Source: Alteromonadaceae bacterium (GTDB taxonomy: Bacteria > Pseudomonadota > Gammaproteobacteria > Enterobacterales > Alteromonadaceae). Taken from it: 45,801 bases of DNA. This document shows positions 5,226-32,493 of this stretch, piece after piece. Within the stretch, counting starts at the first letter, position 1. Each line of letters opens with the position of its first letter. Made by a program: the position numbers and the translations under genes. The stretch lies in the NCBI GenBank assembly GCA_015487235.1, contig WFQC01000158.1:1-45801 (forward strand), given 5' to 3'. The notes under the pieces were generated by a model that saw nothing but the letters and a program-made list of their open reading frames with translations, had not been told where the DNA came from and ran no database searches.

Positions 5226-7775
5226 TCACTTACCTTGCTTACTCTTAAGAGAATGCCGACTTGCTTTAGCATGAGCAGGATCATCAGGCCAATAATGTTT
5301 CGGATAACGGCTTTTCATGTCTTTTTGTACGGCTTTATAGCTACCTTGCCAAAACTGCTCTAAATCAGCTGTGGTTTGAATTGGCCGACCGGCTGGAGAT
5401 AAAAGCTCTAGCACTAAAGGAATGCCTTGGCTTTTTTGTGTACCTGCAACATGAGGCGTTTGTGCTAAGCCATACACTTCTTGCATGGGCAGAGCAACTT
5501 TCGGTGATTGTTGCTCAGCTTCATAACTAATAAGAAAACGTCTGCCAGTGGGGCTGATATAATAGGCTGGCGCAAGTTTATTGAGTAATTGTTGCTGTTC
5601 ATAACTTAATAAAGTTAACAGCATTTCCATAAAATTTAAGTTAGCTAACTGTGCCTTAGATTTTATTTCGCCCACAAAGGGTGTAAACCAAGCATCAAGA
5701 TTTTCTAATAAATAGTGCTCCGACAAAGTGGGCAACTCAAGCGCTTTAACAACATTAACTAACCATTGCCAACGCTTGATTAGGTTGATCACCTTAGCTT
5801 GCCATGTGAACAAATTATTGGCTTTAAAACTTAAACCTTTTTGCTTTAATAATTCAGTCCACAAGTGGGCTATTTGTTCACTGCTCGCGGGGTCTTTACT
5901 TGGTGTTTGTTCAAGTACTAGGTTCCCTAAAATAGTTTGTTTAACTGTGGAGATACGATCATTTTTCTCATGGTAAATTAAACGTGTTTGCTGATGAATT
6001 TTATCACTAAAAAGCTGATAGATATCACTTAATTCAATAGCAGTTGCCAACTTTACCGTAAGCGATCGCTGGCTTTTAAGCTGCATTAATTGCGCAGCAA
6101 CAATAAAAGCTTCATCACTGAGTTTATCTTGCACGGCCAAACTAAAACCTTTGCCATTAACGGCCACAAATTCACCTTCACGAGAACGAGCTTTAGCAAC
6201 ACGCTCAGGGTAAGCCAGTGCTAATAACACACCAGTTTTGTTAAAATAATGAGTTTCAAGCTGAGCAGAAAACTGAATACCAAGTTGTTTCGCTAAGCGT
6301 GCAGCTTGCTGTTTAATACGCTGTACAAGATGTTTATCATTAATACGATGATGAACCAAATCAATTAAGCGATGGCGTAAATCACAATCATCTTGAGCTT
6401 GCGCTCGAGAATAGAGGTCTTTTTCTTCGAGCAAGGCGGCAATATAACAAGCAAGTAGCACAAACTGTTTATTACGATCAAATTGTTTGGCCATTAATAA
6501 CATATGAGCAAAACGAGGGTGACAGTTTAACTTCGCAACCTGCTCACCATGTTGAGTAAGTTTATGTTGTTGATTAACAATATTAAGTGTTATTAACTCT
6601 TGCCATGCTTGTTGTTCTTTTACGGTATTAGGCTGTGTTAATAGAGGTAAATCAGCTAAGGCGGTAACGCCCCAACGCGCCGCTTCAATTAAGCAAGGCA
6701 ATAAATCTGCTCGTTGGATCTCAGCTACACTTTGCTCGGCTCTACGCTCAAAATCATCTTTGCTGTATAAACGAAGGCAATGGCCAGCCATAACACGCCC
6801 TGCACGTCCCGTTCGCTGAATTGCCGAAGCTTTACAAATTTGCTTTTGCTGTAATTGATTAAGCAAGCTATGGCTATTGTATTGCACTATATTTTCAAAC
6901 CCACAATCAATAACAAGATTGATCCCTTCAATCGTTAATGAGGTTTCTGCAATATTAGTGGCAATAACAAGCTTATATCGTCCTGATTTAGTTGGAGCAA
7001 TCACCTGTTGTTGAGCTTGTAAAGACATATCGCCATAGAGCGGTAAAAGATCAAAATGTGTGGGTAGCATATCAATTAAACCTTCCACTAAAAAATGGAT
7101 ATCACCCACGCCAGCAACAAAAACCAGTATTGAGCCTTGATGTTGACTAAGCTGAGTTTTAATCACCGCTAAAGCATGTTCACGCCAATATTGCAGGCGC
7201 TTAGGCGGTAAGTATTCAATTGATACCGCAAAACTTCTCCCTTCACTTTGTAAAGGATAAGCATCAGGCAATTGTTGCATGAAATACTGATTATCAAGCG
7301 TTGCCGACATCAATAATAAGCTTAAGTCATCACGCAAACCTTGCTGAATATCGCGCGCTAAAGCAAAGGCAATGTCTGCCTGCACGCTACGTTGATGAAA
7401 TTCATCAAAAATAACTAAACCACACCCCGTTAATTCTGCATCATTTTGTATAATTTGCGTCAATATGCCTTCAGTGATCACTTCTAAACGCGTTTGTGCT
7501 CCCACTTTAGTCTCATTTCGTAAACGATAACCAATTGTTTCGCCAACCTGCTCTCCAAGCTGTTTAGCTAAATAATGGGCAATATTTTTTGCGGCAATAC
7601 GACGAGGTTGTAATAGGTAAATTTTTTGCTGATGAAATTTAGCGACGTCTAATAACCATAAAGGTAAGACGGTTGATTTACCCGCGCCCGGAGGAGCAGA
7701 TAAAATAATTGTAGCTTGCGTTTCAAGCGCATCAAGTAATGCACTTTTAATTGCCTCAATAGGAAACTTTGTCAT
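5226..7775 (-). CDS. hrpB: ATP-dependent RNA helicase HrpB (DEAH family)
   Basis: This is a DExH-box helicase of 849 residues, the size expected for HrpB. Walker A is APPGAGKST (27-35). It is followed by the DEFH box near residue 123, SATLD near 157 and the QRTGRAGR motif VI near 320. The family-specific C-terminal region ends with the HrpB-type sequence around YPKHYWPDDP. Its cellular role in bacteria is poorly defined. It starts 5 bases after the oxyR stop codon, so it is probably co-transcribed and possibly translationally coupled with oxyR. mrcB lies 90 bp downstream, which preserves the hrpB-mrcB order known from enterobacteria. Confidence 0.95.
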   Translation of the reverse strand: MTKFPIEAIKSALLDALETQATIILSAPPGAGKSTVLPLWLLDVAKFHQQKIYLLQPRRIAAKNIAHYLAKQLGEQVGETIGYRLRNETKVGAQTRLEVITEGILTQIIQNDAELTGCGLVIFDEFHQRSVQADIAFALARDIQQGLRDDLSLLLMSATLDNQYFMQQLPDAYPLQSEGRSFAVSIEYLPPKRLQYWREHALAVIKTQLSQHQGSILVFVAGVGDIHFLVEGLIDMLPTHFDLLPLYGDMSLQAQQQVIAPTKSGRYKLVIATNIAETSLTIEGINLVIDCGFENIVQYNSHSLLNQLQQKQICKASAIQRTGRAGRVMAGHCLRLYSKDDFERRAEQSVAEIQRADLLPCLIEAARWGVTALADLPLLTQPNTVKEQQAWQELITLNIVNQQHKLTQHGEQVAKLNCHPRFAHMLLMAKQFDRNKQFVLLACYIAALLEEKDLYSRAQAQDDCDLRHRLIDLVHHRINDKHLVQRIKQQAARLAKQLGIQFSAQLETHYFNKTGVLLALAYPERVAKARSREGEFVAVNGKGFSLAVQDKLSDEAFIVAAQLMQLKSQRSLTVKLATAIELSDIYQLFSDKIHQQTRLIYHEKNDRISTVKQTILGNLVLEQTPSKDPASSEQIAHLWTELLKQKGLSFKANNLFTWQAKVINLIKRWQWLVNVVKALELPTLSEHYLLENLDAWFTPFVGEIKSKAQLANLNFMEMLLTLLSYEQQQLLNKLAPAYYISPTGRRFLISYEAEQQSPKVALPMQEVYGLAQTPHVAGTQKSQGIPLVLELLSPAGRPIQTTADLEQFWQGSYKAVQKDMKSRYPKHYWPDDPAHAKASRHSLKSKQGK

Positions 7776-24962: not shown

Positions 24963-25090
24963 TTAATCGTTACTCTCTAAAAATATTGCATCGCCCTGTA
25001 TTGGTGCACATTAATATTTAGTAGTGCAAATAACACTCTTATACGATAAAAAAATATAGCAACCAATTGAATACTAATACAATTTTTGCT

Positions 25091-25106
25091 TGGTATTAAC
25101 ATTGCT
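25091..25106 (+). promoter_or_regulatory. Sigma-54 (-24/-12) promoter of narK
   Basis: TGGTATTAACATTGCT matches the sigma-54 consensus TGGCAC-N5-TTGCW with the invariant GG and GC at the correct 10-base spacing. It lies 37 bases before the narK ATG. TGCA-containing half-sites occur upstream at 24987, 25005 and 25025, but none pair into a standard NtrC dyad. Confidence 0.65.
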
Positions 25107-25143: not shown

Positions 25144-26625
25144 ATGAGTTCTTCTCCTGGTATTAAAATATTTTCTTTTTCAGGCAAAATGAAAGTGTTG
25201 CATTTAAGCTGGATGGCTTTTTTCATCACCTTCTTTGTTTGGTTCAACCACGCCCCACTACTAGCCGTTATCGGTGATAGCTTGGGTTTAACAAGTAGCG
25301 AAATAAAAACCTTACTTATTTTAAACGTAGCACTGACCATACCGGCGCGTGTACTTATTGGTATTTTAACCGACAAATATGGTCCTAAACTTACCTATGC
25401 TGCTCTACTCTTTCTCTCTAGTATTCCTTGTTTTATGTTTGCCTTGGCAGATGACTTTCAACAAGCGGCATTAGCACGATTTTTATTAGGTTTTATAGGT
25501 GCGGGCTTTGTTATTGGTATTCGTATGGTCAGCGAATGGTTTCCTGCTAATGAATTAGGTACCGCCGAAGGTATTTATGGGGGTTGGGGTAACTTTGGTT
25601 CAGCGGCCGCTGCAATGTCATTACCCTTAATCGCACTATTTTTTGGTAATTTATTTGATGATGGTAATGGTTGGCGTTATGCCATAGGTCTTACAGGCGT
25701 TGTTAGTTTAGTGTTTAGTTTTATTTGGTATTTTAATGTAAGCGACACACCCGCAGGTTCAACCTATTTTAAGCCTAAAAAGTCAGGTGCGATGGAAGTA
25801 ACTAGCATTGGTGACTTATTTTTACTGGTCTTAATGAAATTACCTATGTATGGCGCTCTAGCTCTACTGGCGTGGAAATTATCACCTGCTGGTGTAGGTA
25901 TGTTAAATGAGCAAAGTACACTGATTGCCTATGTAGCACTCGTAATATTATTTTTAATTGAATTAAAGCAAATTTGGAAAATAAATGGTCATTTATTTAA
26001 GCAACCTGTGGCTGAAATTCATCGTTATCCTTTTAAACAAGTTGCGGTATTAAATATTCTCTATTTTGCAACCTTTGGTTCAGAGCTTGCTGTTATTTCA
26101 ATGTTACCGTTATTTTTTGCTGAAGTATTTTCGCTCGATATGGTCTATGCAGGATTACTCGCCTCGATGTATGCTTTTATGAACTTGATGTCTCGCCCTG
26201 GTGGTGGTTGGTTAAGCGACAAGTTTGGCCGTAAAAAAACATTACTTATTTTAACCGCAGGTTTAGCCATTGGTTATTTTGCTATGGCAGCAATCGACAG
26301 TAGTTGGCCACTGGTATTAGCTGTAGTCACCGCAATGGTTTGTTCATTTTTCGTGCAAGCTGGTGAAGGCGCTGTTTTTGCTGCCGTACCGCTTATTAAA
26401 CGCCGCTTAACGGGGCAAATAGCCGGTATGACAGGTGCTTACGGCAATGTCGGTGCTGTTGTTTACTTAACCGTTTTATCTGTAGTTGATTATCGAACCT
26501 TCTTTTTAGTGATAGCGGGTACTGCCGTTGTTGGTTTTATTGCGCTATTATTTATGAAAGAGCCTCGAGGCGCTATTGCCGAAATACGTGAAGATGGCAC
26601 AATTGAGCTCATTCAAGTTGATTAA
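25144..26625 (+). CDS. narK: Nitrate/nitrite MFS transporter (NarK/NasA family)
   Basis: This is an inner-membrane major facilitator transporter of 493 residues with about 12 TM segments. The two nitrate-porter signatures are present: GGWGNFGSAAAA near residue 148 and TGAYGNVGAVVY near 434. The family arginine (GIRMVSEWF near 125) is also present. It would bring in nitrate or exchange nitrite. It begins the nitrogen operon: the phosphatase-kinase gene follows after two bases, then nirB and nirD. A sigma-54 promoter match lies directly upstream. The symbol follows the family; nasA would be an equally fair name, since the context looks assimilatory. Confidence 0.92.
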   Translation: MSSSPGIKIFSFSGKMKVLHLSWMAFFITFFVWFNHAPLLAVIGDSLGLTSSEIKTLLILNVALTIPARVLIGILTDKYGPKLTYAALLFLSSIPCFMFALADDFQQAALARFLLGFIGAGFVIGIRMVSEWFPANELGTAEGIYGGWGNFGSAAAAMSLPLIALFFGNLFDDGNGWRYAIGLTGVVSLVFSFIWYFNVSDTPAGSTYFKPKKSGAMEVTSIGDLFLLVLMKLPMYGALALLAWKLSPAGVGMLNEQSTLIAYVALVILFLIELKQIWKINGHLFKQPVAEIHRYPFKQVAVLNILYFATFGSELAVISMLPLFFAEVFSLDMVYAGLLASMYAFMNLMSRPGGGWLSDKFGRKKTLLILTAGLAIGYFAMAAIDSSWPLVLAVVTAMVCSFFVQAGEGAVFAAVPLIKRRLTGQIAGMTGAYGNVGAVVYLTVLSVVDYRTFFLVIAGTAVVGFIALLFMKEPRGAIAEIREDGTIELIQVD

Positions 26626-26627
26626 TT

Positions 26628-28463
26628 GTGCAAGATAAGAAGCAGCGTCCAGCAACATTACAATTACTTGTTGGCGGTTATTCTTGTGCCGGTATAAAAG
26701 CCGAAAATCAAGACGCCTTTGCCGCCAAAGTTCCAAGCAATTATGAACTTGAAAGTAAAGGCGCTGTCGCGGTAATTGCTGATGGCGTTTCAAGCGCAAG
26801 CCGTGCGGCTGATGCTGCACAAATGGCTGTTACTCAATTTATTGAAGAGTTTTATGCAACTCCAGAAACATGGTCAACCAAAAAGTCTGCAGGGCAAGTA
26901 TTAAACAGTCTTAATCAGTGGTTATATGGACAAAGTAGTGTTTTAGAGTGTGCGTCTGATTTAGCCACCAACGAGCACCATTCTGATAAGCGCCATAACA
27001 CTGAACATGCATTAGCATTATCGCAAGAACAATACCAGCAATGGCTTACAACTTTTTCAGCGATTATTTTTAAATCAACCACCGGATTTATTTTTCATGT
27101 TGGTGATTCACGCATCAGTGTATTTCAACAAGACAAAATAATACCACTCACTAAAGATCATAATCAAAAACAAGGACGCCATAATATTGTGTTAACGCGA
27201 GCATTAGGCGCTGACTCGCGTTTAAAAGTTGATGTTCACCAAATAGATCTACAAAGCCAAGATATTTATCTACTTACTTGTGATGGCGTGCATGATTTTG
27301 TTAAAAATAAAACGCTGATCGACATTTTAAAAACCTTACCTGAAACACCAAGTAATGCTGATTTAGCAACGGCCAGCAAACACATTGTAGAGCAAGCCTT
27401 AGCGGCAGGAAGCGACGATAATGTGAGTTGTTTATTGGTCTGCGTTAAGCAACTACCAACCAAACAGCTAGATGAAATTGAACGCGAATTATTGGCTAAA
27501 GCCATTCCCCCCGCCTTAAAAGTAGGGCAAAAAATAGATGATTATCAAATACGTAAATTATTACACGCCAGCACACGTTCGCATTTATATTTAGTACAAA
27601 AAAATAATGAAGAACCCTTAGTGCTAAAAACACCTTCGGCTAATTTTTCAGAAGACAGTCTTTATCTACAGGGTTTTATTCACGAAGCTTGGGTGGGCGA
27701 ACGAATTAATCATGCTCATGTAATGAAAATAAAAACACCGCCCCAAAATAGTCAGTTTTTATACCATTTATGTGAGTATATTGAAGGGCAAACGCTCACT
27801 GATTGGATGCGTGATAATCCTCAACCGAGCATTGCACAAGTGCGTGATATTATTGAACAACTCGTTGCCGCCTTACGGGTTTTTCAACGTTTAGAAATTG
27901 TTCATCGAGATATACACCCCGATAACATCATGATAGACAGTAATGGCCAAATAAAGCTAATTGATTACGGTTCAGCATGGGTTGCTGCATTGGCAGAGCG
28001 CCAAGACACGTTAGCAGAAACTATGCCGCAAGGTTCGGTAAATTATTGTGCACCTGAGACCTTAATTTCATTAAAAGCGAACCACCAAAGTGATTTATTT
28101 TCAGTGGGTGTTATTTGTTATCAACTGTTATGCCAAGAACTTCCGTTTAAACCGCTGTCGTATGCCACAATACAAAAGTTAACAACACAGGCCGATTTAA
28201 GCCCGTGGCAATATCGCAGCATTAAACAATTTAGACCTGAATTACCTATTTGGCTCGATTTACTACTAAAACAAGCTACCGAACCTCAGCCAGCTAATCG
28301 CTATCAGGCCTATTCAGAATTACTCAATGATCTCAGCACACCTAATATTGCAGCCGTTGCAGCCTATAAACAGCAGCCTTTGCTACAACGTGATCCGATC
28401 AAGTTTTGGCAAACCACCTCACTCATATTAGCGATAGCTCTAATTGCGGCTTTACTGCATTAA
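26628..28463 (+). CDS. Bifunctional PP2C phosphatase / Ser-Thr protein kinase
   Basis: This is a 611-residue fusion. Residues 14-272 form a PP2C phosphatase with metal-binding motifs ENQD (Asp29), ADGVSS (Asp52), GDSR (Asp160), CDG (Asp219) and GSDDN (263). Residues about 306-570 form a kinase with the ATP lysine Lys334, the catalytic loop HRDIHPDN (Asp428, Asn433), DYG (Asp446) in place of DFG, and APE (475-477). Its glycine-rich loop (LLHASTRSHLYLV) lacks the usual GxGxxG. A TM segment at about 593-611 anchors the C-terminus, so both domains face the cytoplasm. The start is GTG at 26628, two bases after the narK stop, suggesting coupled translation. As I recall, comparable kinases lie between transporter and nirB in Pseudomonas (e.g. 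PA1782). It may tune nitrate uptake or reduction, which is inference. Confidence 0.9.
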   Translation: MQDKKQRPATLQLLVGGYSCAGIKAENQDAFAAKVPSNYELESKGAVAVIADGVSSASRAADAAQMAVTQFIEEFYATPETWSTKKSAGQVLNSLNQWLYGQSSVLECASDLATNEHHSDKRHNTEHALALSQEQYQQWLTTFSAIIFKSTTGFIFHVGDSRISVFQQDKIIPLTKDHNQKQGRHNIVLTRALGADSRLKVDVHQIDLQSQDIYLLTCDGVHDFVKNKTLIDILKTLPETPSNADLATASKHIVEQALAAGSDDNVSCLLVCVKQLPTKQLDEIERELLAKAIPPALKVGQKIDDYQIRKLLHASTRSHLYLVQKNNEEPLVLKTPSANFSEDSLYLQGFIHEAWVGERINHAHVMKIKTPPQNSQFLYHLCEYIEGQTLTDWMRDNPQPSIAQVRDIIEQLVAALRVFQRLEIVHRDIHPDNIMIDSNGQIKLIDYGSAWVAALAERQDTLAETMPQGSVNYCAPETLISLKANHQSDLFSVGVICYQLLCQELPFKPLSYATIQKLTTQADLSPWQYRSIKQFRPELPIWLDLLLKQATEPQPANRYQAYSELLNDLSTPNIAAVAAYKQQPLLQRDPIKFWQTTSLILAIALIAALLH

Positions 28464-28479: not shown

Positions 28480-28496
28480 TGCACTAGTAAAGTGCA
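28480..28496 (+). promoter_or_regulatory. NtrC-type enhancer dyad upstream of nirB
   Basis: TGCACTAGTAAAGTGCA is a perfect match to the NtrC consensus TGCACY-N5-RGTGCA. It lies about 115 bp upstream of the sigma-54 promoter, a normal enhancer distance. NtrC itself is not in the window. Confidence 0.7.
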
Positions 28497-28587
28497 AAAC
28501 TAACTAAAATAACGCAACGCCCGTATTATTTTATCACTCAAAAACACTAAAACAAAAATAAACTTCTTTAATATCAATAAAATGTAA

Positions 28588-28612
28588 AGCGCCTTATCGT
28601 AAATTAAGCGCT
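28588..28612. promoter_or_regulatory. Inverted repeat abutting the nirB -24 element
   Basis: AGCGCCTTA and TTAAGCGCT form an interrupted inverted repeat with a 7-base centre that touches the sigma-54 promoter. It could be an operator for an additional regulator. An imperfect IHF-like site (TATCAA at 28573-28578) lies just before it, where IHF would bend DNA between enhancer and promoter. Confidence 0.3.
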
Positions 28613-28627
28613 GGTACAATCTTTGCG
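28612..28627 (+). promoter_or_regulatory. Sigma-54 (-24/-12) promoter of nirB
   Basis: TGGTACAATCTTTGCG has the invariant GG and GC with correct spacing, and TGGTAC/TTGC otherwise close to consensus. It ends 43 bases before the nirB ATG and lies downstream of an NtrC dyad. Confidence 0.7.
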
Positions 28628-28670
28628 ATAAAGCAACTATCACCAATAAAATGATGGCTGTGGTAACAAG

Positions 28671-31202
28671 ATGAGTACGAAAATAAAACTAGTAGTAATT
28701 GGTAACGGCCCTGTAGGGCACAAGTTTTTAGAAGAATTAGTCGCAACTGGTAAGCATAATGCCTATCAAATAACTGTTTTTGGTGAAGAGCCTTTGCCTG
28801 CTTATGATCGTGTGCAACTAACACGCTGGTTTGAAACTCGACAAGCGCAAACGTTAAATCTAGTTAAAGATAACTTTTACCAAAAAAATAATATTACGCT
28901 TTATAGCAATGAAAAAATCATTCAAATAGATCGCGCTCAGCAAGTAGTGATCAGCAATTCAGGAAAACAGTTACCATACGATAAGCTTATTTTAGCTACA
29001 GGCTCATATCCCTTTGTACCACCTGTGAAGGGGCATGACCGAGAAAATATTTTTGTTTATCGCACTATTGCTGATTTAGAAAAAATTACAGCTGCCGCTC
29101 AACAAAGTAAAATAGGCACAGTTATTGGTGGTGGTTTATTAGGTTTAGAAGCCGCAAAAGCCCTGAAAGATTTAGGGTTAAAAACACACGTTGTTGAATT
29201 TGCACCACGTTTAATGGCGGTACAAATTGATGATGGCGGCGGAAAAATGCTGCGCAAAAAAATTGAGAACCTAGGCGTTTGTGTGCATACACAAAAAAAT
29301 ACCCAATCAATAACCGCTGGCGAAACTACAACGCATCAAATGAATTTTGCAGATGGTGAAATCTTAGCAACAGATATTATTGTTTTTTCTGCAGGAATTC
29401 GCCCCAGAGATGAATTAGCCCGCCAAGCAGCACTGGCCATAGGTGAACGTGGCGGCGTAGTGATTAATAATCATTGTTTAACCTCTGACAATAATATTTA
29501 TGCCATTGGCGAAGTCGCCCTATGGGATAATAAAATTTTTGGCTTAATTGCCCCTGGTAATGCCATGGCGCAAGCGGCGGTTGATCATTTAACCCAAAGT
29601 GGTACGCGAGAATTTAAAGGTGCAGACATGAGCACCAAACTAAAACTGATGGGGGTTGATGTTGCTTCCATTGGTGATGCGCATGGTAATAGCCCTAATG
29701 CTCGCTCATATACTTATGTTAATGATCGTGAAGAAATTTATAAAAAGATTGTGGTCAGTCATGATGATAAACACTTGCTTGGCGCGGTATTAATTGGTGA
29801 TGCTGCCGAATATGGTTCTCTTTTACAATTTATGCTCAATAAAATGACATTACCGAGTGAGCCTGAAAGTTTAATTTTACCACAACTTGAAGGGTCATCA
29901 GCAGGTATTGGCGTTGATGCCCTGCCCGACTCAGCACAAATTTGTTCATGTATGAATGTAACCAAAGCTGATGTAGTGCAAGCAGTACAAGCGGGTGCTA
30001 CAGATATGGCAACCATAAAAAGCGCTACAAAAGCGGCAACAGGGTGTGGCGGTTGTAGCGCCTTAGTAACACAAGTATTAAACAATGAACTAGAAAAACA
30101 AGGCATTAGTGTTAACACCGATTTATGTGAACATTTTGCCTATACTCGACAAGCGCTTTATCACCTTATTCGCATTGAAAAAATTAAAGATTTTACTACG
30201 TTAATGAGCAAACATGGTTCAGGCTTAGGCTGTGATATTTGCAAAGCAACAGCCGCTTCTATTTTTGCTTCTTGCTGGAACGAACATATACTAAATAAGC
30301 CCTTACACGCCTTACAAGACACCAACGACTATTATATGGGCAACATGCAAAAAGATGGCACCTATTCGGTTGTTCCGCGCGTTGCTGGTGGAGAAATAAC
30401 TCCTGAAAAGCTAATCGTTTTAGGGCAAGTAGCTAAAAAATATAATCTTTATACAAAAATTACTGGTGGACAACGGGTTGATTTATTTGGTGCTCGCTCT
30501 GAACAATTACCCGATATTTGGCAAGAACTTGTCGCCGCAGGTTTTGAAACCGGCCATGCTTACGGTAAATCATTACGTACAGTAAAATCATGTGTAGGTT
30601 CAACTTGGTGTCGTTACGGCGTACAAGATTCAATGGCTATGGCTATTTTACTTGAAAATCGTTACAAAGGTTTGCGCTCTCCCCATAAGTTAAAAATGGC
30701 GGTTTCAGGTTGTACCCGTGAATGCGCTGAAGCCCAAAGCAAAGATGTTGGGGTTATTGCTACTGAAAAAGGGTGGAATTTATATGTTTGTGGTAATGGT
30801 GGTATGAAGCCTCGTCATGCTGATTTATTTGCTTCAGATCTTGATGACGTCACCTTGATAAAATATATCGATCGTTTATTTATGTTTTATATTCGCACTG
30901 CTGATCGCCTACAACGTACTTCTGTTTGGTTAGACAATATGGAAGGCGGCTTAAGTTATTTAAAGTCGGTAATTGTTGAAGACAAACTGGGTATAGCTAA
31001 CGAGTTAGAGCAAGAAATGACTCAAGTCATTGCCAGCTATCAATGTGAATGGAAAACCACCATTGAAGATCCTGAAAAACTAAAACGCTTTACTCACTTC
31101 GTTAATAGTCAACAAAGCGACGACAACATTCGCTTTATTCAGGAACGAGAACAAATTCGCCCTAAACCGCTACAAGAAATTACTATTATCGAGGTTAACT
31201 AA
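28671..31202 (+). CDS. nirB: Nitrite reductase [NAD(P)H] large subunit
   Basis: This cytoplasmic sirohaem enzyme reduces nitrite to ammonium with NAD(P)H. The 843 residues include an FAD-binding motif (GNGPVG, 11-16) and an NAD-binding motif (GGGLLGLEAA near 161). A BFD-like 2Fe-2S domain follows with Cys425, Cys427, Cys459 and Cys462. The sirohaem/4Fe-4S site is Cys641, Cys647, Cys681 and Cys685. All cofactor ligands are intact. nirD starts at the base after the nirB stop. Upstream sigma-54 and NtrC sites suggest control by nitrogen limitation, which fits an assimilatory role. Confidence 0.97.
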   Translation: MSTKIKLVVIGNGPVGHKFLEELVATGKHNAYQITVFGEEPLPAYDRVQLTRWFETRQAQTLNLVKDNFYQKNNITLYSNEKIIQIDRAQQVVISNSGKQLPYDKLILATGSYPFVPPVKGHDRENIFVYRTIADLEKITAAAQQSKIGTVIGGGLLGLEAAKALKDLGLKTHVVEFAPRLMAVQIDDGGGKMLRKKIENLGVCVHTQKNTQSITAGETTTHQMNFADGEILATDIIVFSAGIRPRDELARQAALAIGERGGVVINNHCLTSDNNIYAIGEVALWDNKIFGLIAPGNAMAQAAVDHLTQSGTREFKGADMSTKLKLMGVDVASIGDAHGNSPNARSYTYVNDREEIYKKIVVSHDDKHLLGAVLIGDAAEYGSLLQFMLNKMTLPSEPESLILPQLEGSSAGIGVDALPDSAQICSCMNVTKADVVQAVQAGATDMATIKSATKAATGCGGCSALVTQVLNNELEKQGISVNTDLCEHFAYTRQALYHLIRIEKIKDFTTLMSKHGSGLGCDICKATAASIFASCWNEHILNKPLHALQDTNDYYMGNMQKDGTYSVVPRVAGGEITPEKLIVLGQVAKKYNLYTKITGGQRVDLFGARSEQLPDIWQELVAAGFETGHAYGKSLRTVKSCVGSTWCRYGVQDSMAMAILLENRYKGLRSPHKLKMAVSGCTRECAEAQSKDVGVIATEKGWNLYVCGNGGMKPRHADLFASDLDDVTLIKYIDRLFMFYIRTADRLQRTSVWLDNMEGGLSYLKSVIVEDKLGIANELEQEMTQVIASYQCEWKTTIEDPEKLKRFTHFVNSQQSDDNIRFIQEREQIRPKPLQEITIIEVN

Positions 31203-31583
31203 ATGAAAAAATGGCTAACTATTTGTCATAAAGACGATATTCTTCCTAATATGGGGCGATGCGCCCTCATAACAGCGCAAGATCAGCAACGCCAAGTGGC
31301 TATTTTCAATATTGTTGATCGACAAGGTAATGAGCAATTTTACGCCATTGATAATTTTTGCCCTTTTAGTAAAACCAATACGTTATCACGGGGGATCACC
31401 GGCGATATTAATGGTCAGCTCGTTGTAGCATCTCCCTTGTATAAACAACATTTTAATCTTAAAACGGGTCAATGTATTGAAGATAACACTGTAGCCGTTA
31501 ACACTTATTCAGTACGCTGTGATAATGAGCATATTTTAATCGCCATTAATAAATCAGCAGAGGAGCAAAGCAATGACCATTAA
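31203..31583 (+). CDS. nirD: Nitrite reductase [NAD(P)H] small subunit
   Basis: This is the 126-residue partner of NirB with a Rieske-like fold. The family stretch NFCPFSKTNTLSRGITGD near 47 and VASPLYKQHFNLKTGQC near 78 are recognisable. The Cys-His pairs that hold a Rieske cluster are not complete, as is normal for NirD. The ATG abuts the nirB stop, and its last codons overlap the next gene by 11 bases, so the three genes should be translated together. Confidence 0.93.
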   Translation: MKKWLTICHKDDILPNMGRCALITAQDQQRQVAIFNIVDRQGNEQFYAIDNFCPFSKTNTLSRGITGDINGQLVVASPLYKQHFNLKTGQCIEDNTVAVNTYSVRCDNEHILIAINKSAEEQSNDH

Positions 31584-32493
31584 TTATTACACGGTTGATG
31601 TATTTACCGAACAAGCATTTCATGGCGTACCTTTGTCTGTGATCACCGAGGCGGAAACACTTACAACTCAACAAAAACAACAAATAGCCAATGAGCTTTG
31701 TACTGCCAGTACTGTATTTTTAACCGCTAAAAACCCACAAGCCCACCATTATGCTATGCAGGTGTTTTCTCCCCAAAAACAACTTAATGCGAGTACTCAC
31801 AGTGTGTTAGCGGCTAGCTATACCTTAGCGGCAACCCAAAAAGTGTCCTTGAAAGATCAACATACCTTGATCACCTTAAGTGATGAACAACAAGAAATAA
31901 CGACTTATGTCAGTAAAACCAGCGAACAACAAGCAGGGTTAGTACAGCAAACTTATCATACTCATGCCGCAATTGATTATTATACTCCCACCGTAGAAGA
32001 ATTGGCGGCAATGTTGTCGTTAACCCCAGCAGATATAGGGTTTGATAAGTATCGCCCGTTAATTGTTTCTTGCGGTGTACCTTATTTAATTGTTCCCATA
32101 AAATCTTATCGAGCCATTAGAGCGGCAAAATTTAATGAAGGGGCATGGAGTAATTCATCAGCACCGAGTTCTTTAGCACAAGAAATATTATTATTTGCGA
32201 ATAATACTGATGATAATCCTGCCGACTTTCATACTCGCTTGTTAGGACCGTCCATAGCTCAGCATGAAGATCCACCCATTGGTGGTGCTATAGCCGCCTT
32301 TGCTAACCATATTTGTAGCCATGAACATATTCAAACGGGAACACATGTTTTTGCTATTCAACGCGGAGCCAATGACGCCAGAAAAAGTTTCTTTTACATT
32401 GAAATGGATAATAAAAAAAGCAACGACTTAACCATTCGAGTTGGTGGTTATGCGGTGCTTATGAGTAAAGCACAGTTATACCCTGTCAAATAA
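31573..32493 (+). CDS. PhzF-family isomerase-like protein lacking the usual catalytic Glu
   Basis: This 306-residue protein has the two-domain PhzF fold pattern, starting YYTVDVFTEQAFHGVPLSVI. In active PhzF enzymes a Glu in an LSETxF motif (Glu45) is the acid/base; here the aligned stretch reads CTASTVF with Ser46 at that position. The usual GNPAAV is HGVPLSV, GHATLAA is STHSVLAA, and the DPxTGSA loop is EDPPIGGAIAA. It is probably a divergent or non-catalytic member. It overlaps nirD by 11 bases and so belongs to the nirBD transcript. The assignment to the family is good, but the function is unknown. Confidence 0.8.
   Translation: MTINYYTVDVFTEQAFHGVPLSVITEAETLTTQQKQQIANELCTASTVFLTAKNPQAHHYAMQVFSPQKQLNASTHSVLAASYTLAATQKVSLKDQHTLITLSDEQQEITTYVSKTSEQQAGLVQQTYHTHAAIDYYTPTVEELAAMLSLTPADIGFDKYRPLIVSCGVPYLIVPIKSYRAIRAAKFNEGAWSNSSAPSSLAQEILLFANNTDDNPADFHTRLLGPSIAQHEDPPIGGAIAAFANHICSHEHIQTGTHVFAIQRGANDARKSFFYIEMDNKKSNDLTIRVGGYAVLMSKAQLYPVK

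Follow-up and report, generated by a model that had tools for sequence, protein, structure and literature searches.

Which signal switches on the nitrite reductase genes nirB and nirD in Colwellia-like marine bacteria? The nirB promoter of E. coli is controlled by FNR together with NarL/NarP. An initial annotation of the locus described here proposed a different arrangement, in which NtrC activates a sigma-54 promoter and nirBD is assimilatory and nitrogen-regulated. The window, by which we mean the whole analysed stretch of 45,801 nucleotides, carries a run of relevant genes on its plus strand. These are a narK-family nitrate/nitrite transporter gene (25144..26625; TIGR00886, 328.9 bits against a cut-off of 311.7), a gene for a PP2C phosphatase-Ser/Thr kinase fusion protein (26628..28463; PF13672 and PF00069), nirB for the 843-aa large subunit of NADH nitrite reductase (28671..31202; TIGR02374, 1109 bits), nirD for the small subunit (31203..31583; TIGR02378, 107.8 bits against a cut-off of 74.65), and a PhzF-family isomerase gene (31573..32493; TIGR00654) that overlaps the end of nirD and is probably the third gene of the nirBD operon.

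Two motifs stand upstream of nirB on the same strand. The dyad TGCACTAGTAAAGTGCA (28480..28496) is a predicted NtrC enhancer with no mismatches to TGCACYN5RGTGCA. The predicted sigma-54 promoter element TGGTACAATCTTTGCG (28612..28627) agrees with TGGYRYRN4TTGCW at 11 of 12 defined positions, the one mismatch being its last base. Its GG (28613-28614) and GC (28625-28626) are separated by 10 bases, 115 bases lie between the dyad and the -24/-12 element, and a further 43 separate the -12 element from the nirB ATG at 28671. The perfect dyad, the exact GG-N10-GC spacing and both distances are thus as the initial annotation gave them. The dyad is also the single exact match in the window and in the 3,070,652-base draft assembly, and even the looser pattern TGCAC-N7-GTGCA occurs nowhere else in that assembly, where the reversed control gave no match at all.

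If transcription starts 12 bases past the -12 GC, the nirB leader would be about 33 nt long (28638..28670, plus strand) and the centre of the dyad would lie about 150 bp before the start. NtrC dyads usually lie some 80-160 bp ahead of the transcription start, and the distance predicted here falls inside that range. At E. coli glnAp2, tandem NtrC sites are placed about three helical turns apart, an arrangement that is common and not strictly required. All 11 relatives that we aligned carry a second, weaker site (YGCMC-N9-GCA) 30-33 bp downstream of the dyad, a distance of about three helical turns that is similar to that of the glnA tandem sites. This second site is degraded in the window (28513..28529, plus strand), where tandem sites are not found and the left half (CGCA) alone is retained as a remnant.

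Matches of lower quality carry little information on their own. Dyad-like sequences with at most three mismatches number 40 in the window against 51 expected, with no excess over chance, and -24/-12-like sequences with at most two mismatches number 104 against 95 expected. Because loose matches occur at chance level, we place weight on the exact dyad, on the order and spacing of the two motifs and on their conservation; and because a lone -24/-12 match is common in the window, conservation serves as our test against chance.

The spacer ahead of nirB was aligned across 12 genomes, namely the window, ten named relatives (L032-L041) and one further genome (G006, locus L006). The ten are the closest named relatives by NirB (78-81% identity), and their assemblies are labelled Colwellia, Alteromonadaceae or Gammaproteobacteria. 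The arms of TGCAC-N7-GTGCA are invariant in all 12 genomes and the -24/-12 element is kept in all 12, so the initial annotation's expectation that close relatives would preserve both motifs holds in 11 of 11. The relatives differ at the inner Y and R of the dyad. Mean pairwise identity is 76% inside the motifs, degenerate positions included, and about 45% outside them; 28 bases before the ATG are invariant, 20 of which fall within the two motifs. The distance from dyad to promoter, measured start to start, ranges from 118 to 132 bp among these close nirB loci. Allowing at most one mismatch in the -24/-12 element and two in the dyad, the pair is found in the correct order in all ten close named relatives, and in eight of them with at most one mismatch in each motif, whereas 200 dinucleotide shuffles yield 0.0 on average.

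Further from the window, the arrangement thins out. Shuffle tests covered 77 of the 80 named loci, the other three being L065 and L077 (fewer than 30 bases upstream) and L088 (reported match from base 8, nirB itself placed at 1120). Among the 67 more distant loci so tested, a -24/-12 element with at most one mismatch is present at 48 (shuffle mean 0.75). The pair is found at 20 of the 67, or at 5 under the stricter limits (shuffle mean 0.0). L088 shows neither motif upstream and, counted as a miss, brings these figures to 48/68 and 20/68; 20 of the 68 lack a -24/-12 element in 320 bp. In an order-wide set of 29 nirB loci, one per genome and excluding the fragment L031, a -24/-12 element occurs in 17, with an NtrC-like site upstream in 13 of those, and the remaining 12 have no such element (at most one mismatch) over the 450 bp searched, or 421 bp in one case. 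Since many distant nirB genes are without it, the motif pair is, as judged by these searches, a feature of a lineage and not a universal one.

The specificity of the pair was assessed by searching 196 genomes of the family for both motifs with their spacing. This gave 12 matches, one in each of 12 genomes, and the reversed pattern gave none. Seven matches precede nirB, two precede glnA and one precedes glnK-amtB, such that 10 of the 12 are located before nitrogen genes. One of the two others precedes an open frame without a Pfam match, and for the last the first frame longer than 60 aa begins 437 bases further on. The seven nirB matches are not independent evidence, because the window and its relatives are already included in the alignment; those before glnA and glnK-amtB are. 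With 10 of 12 matches before nitrogen genes, the spaced pair is specific enough to help in predicting NtrC targets in this family.

The genome also encodes the proteins that such a promoter would need, as the initial annotation had asked to be checked. NtrC scores 774.9 bits in a profile search with a cut-off of 620, and its gene lies on a contig (C48) that carries ntrC, ntrB and then, one 174-aa frame further, glnA. Upstream of glnA are TGCACTATTGTGGTGCT and TGGCATAAATTTAGCT, with one mismatch each, an NtrC-type upstream region. A long inverted repeat, CCACAATAGTGC...GCACTATTGTGG, surrounds the NtrC site there (L132, about 6571-6720, minus strand). The rpoN gene is present too; two contigs each begin with a piece of it, one scoring above and the other below the family cut-off. 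With the conserved pair and these genes in hand, the fit of the sites, their order and their distance to activation by NtrC is well supported, and we assign a probability of about 0.9 to the reading that NtrC drives a sigma-54 promoter in the region upstream of nirB.

Similar motifs are predicted ahead of narK, a find beyond the initial annotation. An NtrC-like site, CGCCCTGTATTGGTGCA (24992..25008, plus strand, two mismatches), is followed by the -24/-12-like element TGGTATTAACATTGCT (25091..25106, plus strand, one mismatch). In three relatives of the same genus, narK has an intact TGCAC-N7-GTGCA at -151 to -153 and a -24/-12 element at -51 to -53, distances that agree with those in the window. 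A scan of 20 narK-family loci, paralogues included, and with several start codons located inexactly, found the pair at 6 (at most one mismatch in the -24/-12 element and two in the NtrC site), a poorer pair at 3 and none at 11.

These narK sites bear on one alternative, in which nirBD depends chiefly on transcripts that read through from the narK promoter, as part of a narK-kinase-nirBD operon, and the local promoter is minor. The genes share a strand, the gap before nirB is 207 bp without a terminator-like site, and narK has its own putative promoter and enhancer. However, narK is about 28 kb away in G001 and on another contig in G002, and the pair before nirB is still kept in both; in the genome of the window, moreover, the nirB dyad has no mismatches and the narK dyad has two. 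We consider dependence on readthrough unlikely. A sigma-70 promoter in place of the sigma-54 promoter is harder still to credit. One sequence at 28623-28652 matches 9 of 12 sigma-70 positions, but shuffled sequences contain 0.7 such matches on average, and this one overlaps the conserved -12 element, which better explains its conservation. We also regard it as very improbable that the dyad is bound by a sigma-54 activator other than NtrC. Nine strong Sigma54_activat proteins are encoded, which leaves eight besides NtrC, and the variable inner positions of the dyad in the relatives would be compatible with a different protein. Against this, the dyad agrees with the consensus for NtrC, glnA on the contig that carries ntrBC has a similar site upstream, and three of the family-wide matches to the pair lie before glnA and glnK-amtB.

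The remaining alternative is that nirBD is controlled by FNR and NarL/NarP as in E. coli and that the NtrC and sigma-54 motifs are coincidental. The organism has narG and a close orthologue of Fnr (412.1 bits, cut-off 228), and an FNR-like sequence with two mismatches to the FNR box (TTGAT-N4-ATCAA) is present at 28564-28577; relatives have such sequences as well, with two mismatches in L036 and L038 and one in L039. These lie at other positions, though, the best sequences in the other eight relatives have three or four mismatches, and 13 of 200 shuffles yield an FNR site as good as that of the window. NarL heptamers, which in that scheme lie near the start, are matched equally well in 194 of 200 shuffles. 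The same genome provides an internal contrast. Its narG lies behind an MFS transporter gene (L138 1-6075, contig C171), and the 400 bases before this cluster hold an FNR box without mismatches, TTGATCCAAATCAA, and no NtrC site, the best candidate there having four mismatches. This contrast supports placing nirBD outside the FNR/NarL scheme, and we judge control of that type to be most improbable. Although the E. coli promoter serves homologous nirBD genes, it uses a different sigma factor class and different activators, and comparable FNR/NarL sites were not found here. In a broader scan of the nirB spacer with consensus sequences, candidate sites for FNR, NarL, NarP, CRP, IHF, Nac and ArgR-like proteins did not clearly beat shuffled sequences; the best IHF site was equalled in 74 of 200 shuffles and the best sites of the others, FNR aside, in 147 to 198.

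Returning to control by NtrC and sigma-54, we propose the following course of events. Under nitrogen shortage, NtrB phosphorylates NtrC. Dimers of NtrC-P would occupy the dyad (28480-28496), some 150 bp ahead of the predicted start, and by looping would contact RNA polymerase-sigma-54 at 28612-28627 so that the promoter opens. From a start near 28638 (about 28637-28640), transcription would then cover the short leader, nirB, nirD and probably the phzF-like gene. Because narK and the kinase gene appear to be preceded by a similar pair that looks weaker, nitrite uptake and reduction may be switched on together. The two mismatches in the NtrC-like site of the window's own narK, as well as the missing second site before nirB, point against the model. 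If it is correct, nirBD in this marine Colwellia-like group would be under the control of nitrogen limitation rather than that of oxygen and nitrate respiration, and metagenomic nirBD genes from these bacteria should not automatically be read as evidence of dissimilatory ammonification.

The initial annotation further held that nirBD is assimilatory. Its contention that the genes are nitrogen-regulated and outside FNR/NarL control agrees with the lack of an outstanding FNR or NarL site and with the contrast to narG, and the assimilatory role itself is one we infer from the predicted regulation and from gene neighbourhoods. A narG cluster behind a perfect FNR box suggests that the organism probably also respires nitrate, and with narG and an Fnr orthologue in the same genome, nitrite produced by respiration may be a further substrate of NirBD.

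A search of the genome for molybdenum enzymes gave four matches, one of which is NarG. Two others, on contigs C91 and C18, were rejected as nitrate reductases, as they fit an NAD-linked formate dehydrogenase that is cut by contig ends. The fourth (contig C115; L133 1313-5505) is a NasC/formate-dehydrogenase-like molybdoenzyme followed by a protein in which a 4Fe-4S domain is fused to a DmsC-type membrane anchor. Of the 80 named loci, 17 have this pair of genes close to nirBD, and enzymes of this type are preceded by an NtrC-like site with at most three mismatches in 6 of 6 genomes and by GG-N10-GC with at most three mismatches in 5 of 6. Given this proximity to nirBD, the upstream elements and the assignment of the other molybdenum enzymes elsewhere, we consider it a candidate assimilatory nitrate reductase, which may be membrane-anchored and quinol-linked. 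No title among the matches listed in our literature search described such a membrane-anchored assimilatory enzyme.

Some nitrate and nitrite assimilation systems add a layer of antitermination to control by NtrC, and this layer is probably absent from nirB in the window because proteins with an ANTAR domain (NasR/NasT type) were found in none of four genomes of the genus and because the predicted leader, at about 33 nt, falls short of the length needed for hairpins and a terminator. The four, all drafts, include the genome of the window, the other three are 78-91% complete, and the same search recovers such a protein, once per genome, in 15 of the 59 genomes covered, which act as a positive control. 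In addition, the nirB leader contains no terminator-like site and no Rfam match at the gathering score. Across the 29 wider-set nirB loci, the relation between leader length and the presence of an ANTAR protein is a weak trend and not a rule. Short predicted leaders occur together with an ANTAR protein in G006 (36 nt), G034 (54 nt) and G044 (63 nt), and predicted leaders of 113-151 nt occur without one in G015, G054 and G056. Since the two are not cleanly linked among these relatives, loss of antitermination is best treated as a hypothesis. We offer only tentatively, and with some doubt, the idea that the genus has dropped the NasR/NasT layer, reads nitrogen status through NtrC and sigma-54 only, and perhaps has moved nitrate-specific control, if there is any, to the PP2C-kinase fusion. 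A missing antitermination layer raises the testable question of how these cells sense nitrate.

Control of nitrite reductase genes by NtrC is already known, and the present locus adds a well-supported case to that known type without introducing a new mechanism. A review describes a nirBD operon with a sigma-54/NtrC start, the leader RNA NalA and antitermination by NasT, and also a nirB promoter under FNR with NarL/NarP (PMC12830290). The nirBD operon in that review shares with the window a sigma-54 promoter activated by NtrC-P before nirBD, which here is predicted, and adds nitrate control through the leader RNA and NasT; here we find the short predicted leader and, in four genomes of the genus, no ANTAR protein. 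The source cited in it for NasT and NalA deals, by its title, with Pseudomonas putida, and a 2012 title by Romeo concerns nirBD antitermination in P. aeruginosa. In Klebsiella oxytoca, according to another article, the nitrate assimilation genes are governed by the Ntr system and by NasR antitermination (PMC5424462). Control of nitrate assimilation by nitrogen limitation through NtrC is thus common to both, as a prediction in our case; unlike in K. oxytoca as so described, no NasR-type protein was found here, and transporter, nitrite reductase and candidate nitrate reductase appear to lie behind separate motif pairs. The same article gives an NtrC-site consensus for Paracoccus that differs somewhat from the one used here (PMC5424462).

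Work on Pseudomonas stutzeri A1501 reports a putative NtrC site at the nitrite reductase gene nasB, measured NtrC-dependent expression, and the presence of NasT (PMC8443478). The two cases share a putative NtrC site at a gene for nitrite reductase and NtrC-dependent expression, the latter as a prediction here; that strain belongs to another gammaproteobacterial genus and has NasT. Comparative-genomic NtrC regulons are reported to include nas, nirA and narK in alpha- and betaproteobacteria and urease genes in Alteromonadales (PMC5343134); the present case, from a Colwellia-like alteromonad, differs in lineage from that survey's extension to nas, nirA and narK. Among the matches listed, no publication title concerned nirBD of Colwellia-like bacteria under NtrC.

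Two genes adjoining nirBD deserve mention in their own right. Relatives of the PhzF-family gene (at least 35% identity, 50% coverage), a family with no obvious role in nitrite reduction, occur in 29 of the 80 named nirB loci. The PP2C-kinase fusion gene, placed between the nitrate transporter gene and nirBD, likewise has relatives in 29 of the 80.
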